From a virus: a DNA stretch of 30,267 nucleotides. Below the pieces are notes generated by a model. It saw nothing but the letters and a program-made list of their open reading frames with translations, was not told the origin of the DNA and searched no databases. Below are positions 345 through 526 of this stretch, piece after piece (positions within the stretch are counted from its first letter, which is position 1; each line of letters starts with the position of its first letter). The position numbers and the translations under genes are program-made. The stretch spans positions 1 to 30,267 of the IMG/VR virus record IMGVR_UViG_3300021356_000111, one strand, 5' to 3'.

Positions 345-400
345 CGTACGTTCATCCCATTTGGGACGCATGCTGCCTAACCATGGAACGGGGGTTAGGT
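345..400 (+). promoter_or_regulatory. Candidate glutamine-II riboswitch (Downstream-peptide RNA)
   Basis: A short hairpin (TCCC 355-358 with GGGA 363-366) is followed by GACGCATG. A second stem pairs CCTAACC (376-382) with GGTTAGG (393-399). Its loop carries GAACG (386-390), which is complementary to CGTTC (349-353), giving an H-type pseudoknot. The elements CGTTCATCCC, GGGACGCATG and ATGGAACGGG match my memory of the Downstream-peptide motif, the glutamine-binding RNA of marine cyanobacteria and their phages, which precedes short ORFs. A short ORF does follow here. The 3' arm contains TTAGG, the only Shine-Dalgarno-like stretch nearby, so ligand binding could hide it. Rfam was not searched. 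Confidence 0.75.
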
Positions 401-418
401 TTAATCTTGTACGAACTC

Positions 419-526
419 ATGTCCATCAATCTTATTCGTTTCCTTGCATCACAGAAGAAGCGCGCACAGCGTTATCACACTGACAAGCTTCGCTACCGTG
501 GTGTAGTGTATAAAGAGATCGACTGA
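419..526 (+). CDS. 35-aa riboswitch-linked peptide, DUF4278-like
   Basis: This short ORF lies directly downstream of the pseudoknot RNA. It encodes MSINLIRFLASQKKRAQRYH and ends KLRYRGVVYKEID. The LRYRGVVY part resembles the start of DUF4278 proteins (L-x-YRG-x-x-Y), which are common in cyanobacteria and cyanophages. The start is uncertain. The ATG at 419 has no close Shine-Dalgarno sequence. A TTG at 407 in the same frame sits 7 bases after AGG. An in-frame ATG at 383 lies inside the pseudoknot. Its position under a likely glutamine sensor suggests that expression depends on host nitrogen state. The biochemical function is unknown. Confidence 0.65.
   Translation: MSINLIRFLASQKKRAQRYHTDKLRYRGVVYKEID

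Follow-up and report, generated by a model that had tools for sequence, protein, structure and literature searches.

A Glutamine-II riboswitch and a short peptide gene form a recurrent cassette in T7-like marine cyanophages

The DNA analysed here (the window) is a 30,267-nt IMG/VR virus record from a T7-like marine cyanopodovirus, and its nearest relatives by DNA and capsid protein are phages of the same kind, e.g. S-SBP1, S-RIP1, S-RIP2 and P-SSP7. At positions 346–400 stands a Glutamine-II (Downstream-peptide) riboswitch aptamer, followed by the gene for a 35-aa peptide; the pair is a genuine phage cassette and belongs to an already known class. Family membership, intact pocket nucleotides, covariation, purifying selection and strict linkage of aptamer to peptide carry this conclusion; beyond it we infer that this copy binds glutamine and acts on translation as an ON switch, and also what the peptide does. 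We consider it probable that this cyanopodovirus riboswitch translationally raises the 35-aa peptide, which would tune the nitrogen metabolism of the host.

A cmscan search of the whole window matched RF01704 over the full model length (positions 1–60 of 60) with 57.2 bits against a gathering score of 33 (E = 1.5e-11), and this was the sole Rfam family above cut-off in the 30 kb. The glnA family (RF01739, Glutamine-I), which the original prediction had also named, reached 20 bits, under its cut-off of 35, and was rejected. The prediction of a glutamine-type aptamer of the Downstream-peptide family was thus borne out, and the pseudoknot strands, the UCCC/GGGA hairpin, the second stem and the open reading frame it described are all present where it placed them. 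The aptamer with its parts, the P0 arms, the peptide frame, the capsid gene and its leader all lie on the plus strand. The 5′ pseudoknot strand CGUUC (349–353), part of the ligand pocket, pairs with GAACG (386–390). The P1 hairpin occupies 355–366 (355–358 with 363–366), and its 3′ arm begins the segment GGGACGCATG at 363–372. The P2 stem spans 375–400 (375–382 with 393–400) and has eight pairs including one G-U; its loop, AUGGAACGGG, contains ATGGAACGGG. In the numbering of the crystal structure (PMC6698751), C1 G2 U3 U4 C5 correspond to 349–353, G18 to 368, C19 to 369, A33 to 383 and G35–G42 to 385–392, all identical. The pocket and pseudoknot nucleotides C1, G2, G18, C19, A33 and C39–G42 are therefore all found in the window (349, 350, 368, 369, 383 and 389–392), and this copy would be expected to bind glutamine. 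The crystallised RS01 aptamer itself was suspected to be viral because of its phage-like CGUUCAUCC...GGACGCAUG, a suspicion dropped when no exact match was found in viral contigs.

Related phages preserve the fold while changing its sequence. An aptamer-only pattern search of viral contigs, which ignored peptide and capsid, found 85 DNA stretches, most with a capsid gene and a peptide ending in YRGxxY downstream. Covariation was measured over 83 distinct phage aptamers. P2 was paired in 97% of cells and showed 25 additional pair types, whereas 500 shuffles gave 76% pairing with a maximum of 79%; P1 varies with compensating changes (ACCT/GGGT, CCTCT/GGAGG and TCGGAGC/GCTCTGA in relatives), so the expectation that the stems covary in related phages was confirmed. 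The pseudoknot strands are nearly invariant (5′ strand in 81/83, 3′ strand in 83/83), partly since GGAACGGGG defined the search set. The aptamer of SS120-1, found by the Rfam model and lying outside the pattern, has CGTTT/AAACG, one compensatory change in the pseudoknot.

The cassette is widespread in this phage group. Among the 80 contigs nearest by capsid protein, a sample biased to near relatives, 50 carry RF01704 above cut-off, two carry a degraded copy and 28 are others; as 20 of these 28 have less than 400 nt before the capsid gene, the figure for visible cases is 52/60, the two degraded copies included. Thirteen of 20 cyanopodovirus isolates have the aptamer, 11 above cut-off (P-SSP7, P-SSP2, P-GSP1, NATL2A-133, 9515-10a, NATL1A-7, SS120-1, S-RIP2, S-TIP37, S-CBP1 and S-CBP4) and two degraded (S-SBP1 and S-CBP3), and seven have none. 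Aptamer and peptide occur together in the 11 and are both missing from the seven (Fisher p = 3e-5, which overstates the evidence because the phages are kin), and the two isolates with degraded aptamers keep the peptide. In S-SBP1 the 5′ half of the aptamer has been lost to the end of the upstream gene while the peptide persists, so that some phages can do without the control. In the environmental set, eight contigs without the aptamer also lack the peptide and 50 have an intact aptamer; the corresponding p of 5e-10 (50 versus 8) assumes the peptide in all 50, where it was seen in most distinct sequences and not tallied singly, and is likewise inflated by kinship.

The aptamer might instead be a captured piece of host DNA with no function in the phage. 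Hosts do hold many copies (42 of 61 genomes in a host-family sample have the riboswitch, with 1–7 copies each), and some phages have a degraded aptamer or none. Against this explanation, which we regard as very improbable, stand the covariation over 83 distinct aptamers from several cyanopodovirus genera, the invariance of the pocket and the strict tie to a single peptide family. The phage cassette shares with the Glutamine-II class the full-length model, the pocket nucleotides, P1, P2 and the pseudoknot, and a short peptide reading frame close downstream. It differs from host copies in its 5′ flank (CGT[AC] in phages, GCTACNAAA in hosts) and in the segment after the P1 hairpin (CGCATG in phages, usually CGCAGTTCGA in hosts). 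Where they were read, the proteins behind host copies are of the DUF4278 type, mostly with two or three YRG-type motifs, whereas the phage peptide has one; the window's clade also has an additional helix, P0, described below.

The peptide gene (MSINLIRFLASQKKRAQRYHTDKLRYRGVVYKEID, 419–526) runs from an ATG at 419–421, 19 bases past the aptamer, to a stop at 524–526, and its product has a basic stretch at the N-terminus and a single [LV][KR]YRG[VI]xY motif, and ends in LRYRGVVYKEID. The Downstream-peptide motif precedes reading frames of 17–100 codons (PMC2864571), a range that includes the 35-aa frame; the relatives are mostly 16–51 aa. We collected 80 distinct homologous peptides by their YRG motif, and nearly all have YRGxxY near the C-terminus. 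With a pN/pS of 0.23 in the window's same-length clade, and 0.28 and 0.15 in two sister groups, the peptide is under purifying selection. The proposal that a short peptide is controlled in cis is supported, and so is the DUF4278-like C-terminus that had been noted. The Pfam DUF4278 model (PF14105, gathering cut-off 25.3 bits) does not match the window's peptide and matches its cyanopodovirus relatives weakly, at best with 19.2 bits (E = 0.0016); because these scores are below the cut-off, the peptide is DUF4278-like and not a member of DUF4278. No solved structure was found for any relative of the peptide. P-SSP7 carries the aptamer with a 17-aa peptide, MKVTFVYRGVAYTRVIG; in several annotated isolates, this one among them, the peptide is not listed as a gene. 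A separate case is L043, a 32,916-nt contig in which a Glutamine-II aptamer and a 51-aa peptide with two motifs lie 3′ of the terminase large subunit gene; this phage is apparently not of the cyanopodovirus kind. Another cyanophage contig (L167/L037) lies inside a genome bin named Porticoccaceae (PABE01000131.1), where it is probably mis-binned, and has a 17,840-nt counterpart in IMG/VR.

Judging from the leaders of related phages, ATG 419 is the start codon, because sister clades have a spacer shorter by one base, which puts the TTG out of frame and leaves the ATG in place. The original prediction had suggested TTG 407 as a possible start, and this does not hold: the same TTGTACGAACT stands one base short before the ATG in those clades. 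Residues 5′ of ATG 419 are not conserved, and of 104 loci only 22 have the equivalent of another candidate, ATG 383, in frame.

The same prediction took the TTAGG at 395–399, in the 3′ arm of P2, for a ribosome-binding site that ligand binding conceals. This model implies an OFF switch: glutamine would make the ribosome-binding region inaccessible, and the peptide would be produced under glutamine shortage. Many relatives instead have GGAG or GAGG, Shine–Dalgarno-like and outside the aptamer, between P2 and the ATG. Type-2 glutamine riboswitches are reported to be ON switches, probably translational, and a Prochlorococcus type-2 switch was ON in a GFP fusion (PMC6698751, PMC6316151). The TTAGG model is therefore disfavoured. 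A second route to the same logic would be P0, a possible outer helix of seven pairs between UUCGUAC (343–349) and GUACGAA (409–415), the second arm being a perfect complement of the first in the window's clade. P0 occurs throughout that clade and is missing in others, and its 5′ arm marks the edge of the clade's conserved sequence. The 3′ arm spans –10 to –4 before ATG 419, ending three bases before the start, and the pair probabilities are 0.84–1.0 in a pseudoknot-free fold. P0 could stack on the bound pseudoknot and thereby close the start. It shares C349 with the pseudoknot, however, and in the window's clade the start is predicted to open more easily in the bound form (–1.47 kcal/mol in a simple model without coaxial stacking). 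P0 could thus act in either direction. The folding model does not prove direction, because the mean change in accessibility on binding is –0.72 kcal/mol for phages' own leaders and –0.66 kcal/mol for clade-swapped ones, which do about as well; the same comparison, in which own leaders were no better than swapped ones, led us to reject the idea that free leaders generally fold over the RBS. On balance we judge an OFF switch rather unlikely and retain the ON reading.

Downstream of the cassette in the window is the major capsid protein gene (692–1786; PHROG 267, major head protein, E = 1.3e-82), and directly 5′ of the aptamer is a 53-aa basic reading frame (176–337; PHROG 16028, function unknown). 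The described location before the capsid gene thus proved accurate for the window and for 101 of 115 distinct contexts. This arrangement would suit a switch that governs the capsid gene or late-region transcription, with the peptide a mere leader reading frame, and the original prediction had tied control to the onset of late expression. In seven of the 115 contexts, however, the order is psbA, cassette, endonuclease I, with endonuclease I in place of the capsid gene, and on this ground the link to late expression is unsupported and the cassette belongs with its peptide and not with the capsid gene. Where enough sequence is available, the upstream neighbour is psbA or the scaffold gene, and the cassette often stands right behind psbA. 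Moreover, the capsid ATG lies some 300 to 1400 nt away, some phages have other genes in between, the peptide is conserved at the amino-acid level, and neither a sigma-70 promoter nor a terminator above chance was found near the cassette on the window strand. Riboswitch control of the capsid gene is unlikely, and as an overall explanation we consider it improbable. The endonuclease I placement characterizes one phage clade (L004, L011, L027, L042, L046, L049 and L082, and also L047); beyond endonuclease I, L047 and L049, where more sequence is available, have primase/helicase and DNA polymerase genes. The Syn5 phage promoter ATTGGGCACCCGTAA (PMC3950665) was not found in the window even when three mismatches were allowed.

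The capsid gene has a conserved, structured leader of its own (527–691), also present in phages that lack the riboswitch, which further argues against capsid control by the aptamer. The 160 nt before the capsid ATG are conserved in nearly all relatives, with a diverged form in the riboswitch-less Syn5 and P60, and have no Rfam match. At 569–627 an element of the form TTGGC...GCCC, UACG hairpin, GGATACC...GCC is followed by GTGGGATAGACCAC. Of 116 leaders, 108 have a hairpin with a UACG-type loop within this conserved frame; 37 different stems occur, and 79 of 85 counted pairs are formed (two or three pairs beside the loop, one count per distinct stem), counts that come from a motif search made after viewing the sequences; automatic consensus folding of the entire leader was uninformative. 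The outer stem of the hairpin covaries (CT/AG, CA/TG, CG/CG). A similar GCCTGATGCGTCAGACAACC precedes the capsid gene of roseophage CRP-171, and AGACCACA of the leader resembles the start of the T7 gene 10 leader. The leader also contains two perfect, loopless palindromes, CCGTCTAGACGG and TCTAAACGTTTAGA (602–613 and 642–655). The first zone is filled in 95 and the second in 79 of the 116 leaders, whereas a shuffled leader has 0.18 such palindromes on average. Relatives retain a palindrome at these positions but not its sequence: the centres are CTAG, CATG and TCGA, and ACGT, GATC, GCGC, GTAC and others, and many distinct sequences fill the second zone. This suggests pairing between two RNA or DNA strands, and not a fixed protein site. 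Within the leader, a hairpin at 543–561 (GGGAGGTGCAATGCCTCCC) is like a tRNA T-arm (GGAGGTTCGATTCCTCC in relatives; L181, 1306–1376; L109, 2813–2883). The same site holds a real tRNA-Gly(TCC) in NATL1A-7 and L109 and a hairpin with GGCACCTCAGAGTCGGACC in other phages, and is possibly a tRNA-like processing site.

We hypothesize that the switch operates from the leader of a very short phage gene in the psbA-to-capsid region. Plentiful L-glutamine in an infected Synechococcus or Prochlorococcus cell would stabilize the pseudoknot, and this would alter access to the start codon at 419, most likely giving more translation of the 35-aa peptide. The peptide would be a pared-down counterpart of the DUF4278 small proteins that riboswitches control in the host, most likely replacing or adding to these glutamine-responsive proteins and so tuning host nitrogen metabolism. 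Among the closest counterparts are two DUF4278 small proteins of Prochlorococcus under riboswitch control, yfr6 and PMM1846 (PMC1242208, PMC6316151), which share with the phage cassette the riboswitch class, a short peptide (33 aa for yfr6) and the host of the phage group. The phage peptides differ in that only a single YRG motif is left, at the C-terminus and in many cases behind a basic segment; the shortest are 16–18 aa. In Prochlorococcus MED4 infected by phage, an early rise is reported for an antisense RNA against yfr6 and for another against a yfr6-like gene (PMC2518516).

IF17 (GifB), a cyanobacterial glutamine synthetase inhibitor, has an N-terminal DUF4278 part, and its gene is under a type-1 glutamine riboswitch in Synechocystis. 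The MED4 infection presumably used P-SSP7; if so, the phage aptamer and peptide were in the same cells. The DUF4278 part of IF17 is reported to be dispensable for inhibition (PMC6316151), the phage peptide had no match to the inhibitor families, and glutamine synthetase inhibition by the peptide is only a guess. More broadly, it is possible, if doubtful, that the peptide is a glutamine-gated metabolic effector: phage RNA would read the nitrogen state of the host and set the dose of a minimal DUF4278-type peptide acting on host nitrogen assimilation, e.g. on glutamine synthetase or its regulators, within a psbA-linked host-takeover cassette. Methylophage Melnitz and pelagiphage Mosig also bear glutamine riboswitches; that of Melnitz, a myophage, is described as glnA-like and linked to a tmRNA gene, whereas here the riboswitch is type 2 and linked to a peptide in T7-like phages (PMC9004378).

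Phage riboswitches are seldom reported, and few have been linked to a conserved effector gene. The glutamine riboswitch described here is found repeatedly in a major marine cyanophage group, in many cases next to psbA, a photosynthesis gene. As P-SSP7 has both the aptamer and a 17-aa peptide, host-nitrogen sensing by a lytic phage and the role of the DUF4278 peptides of picocyanobacteria could be tested in culture. Because relatives across the ocean carry the same pair of switch and protein, viruses of this kind probably regulate a single small protein according to the host's nitrogen state.
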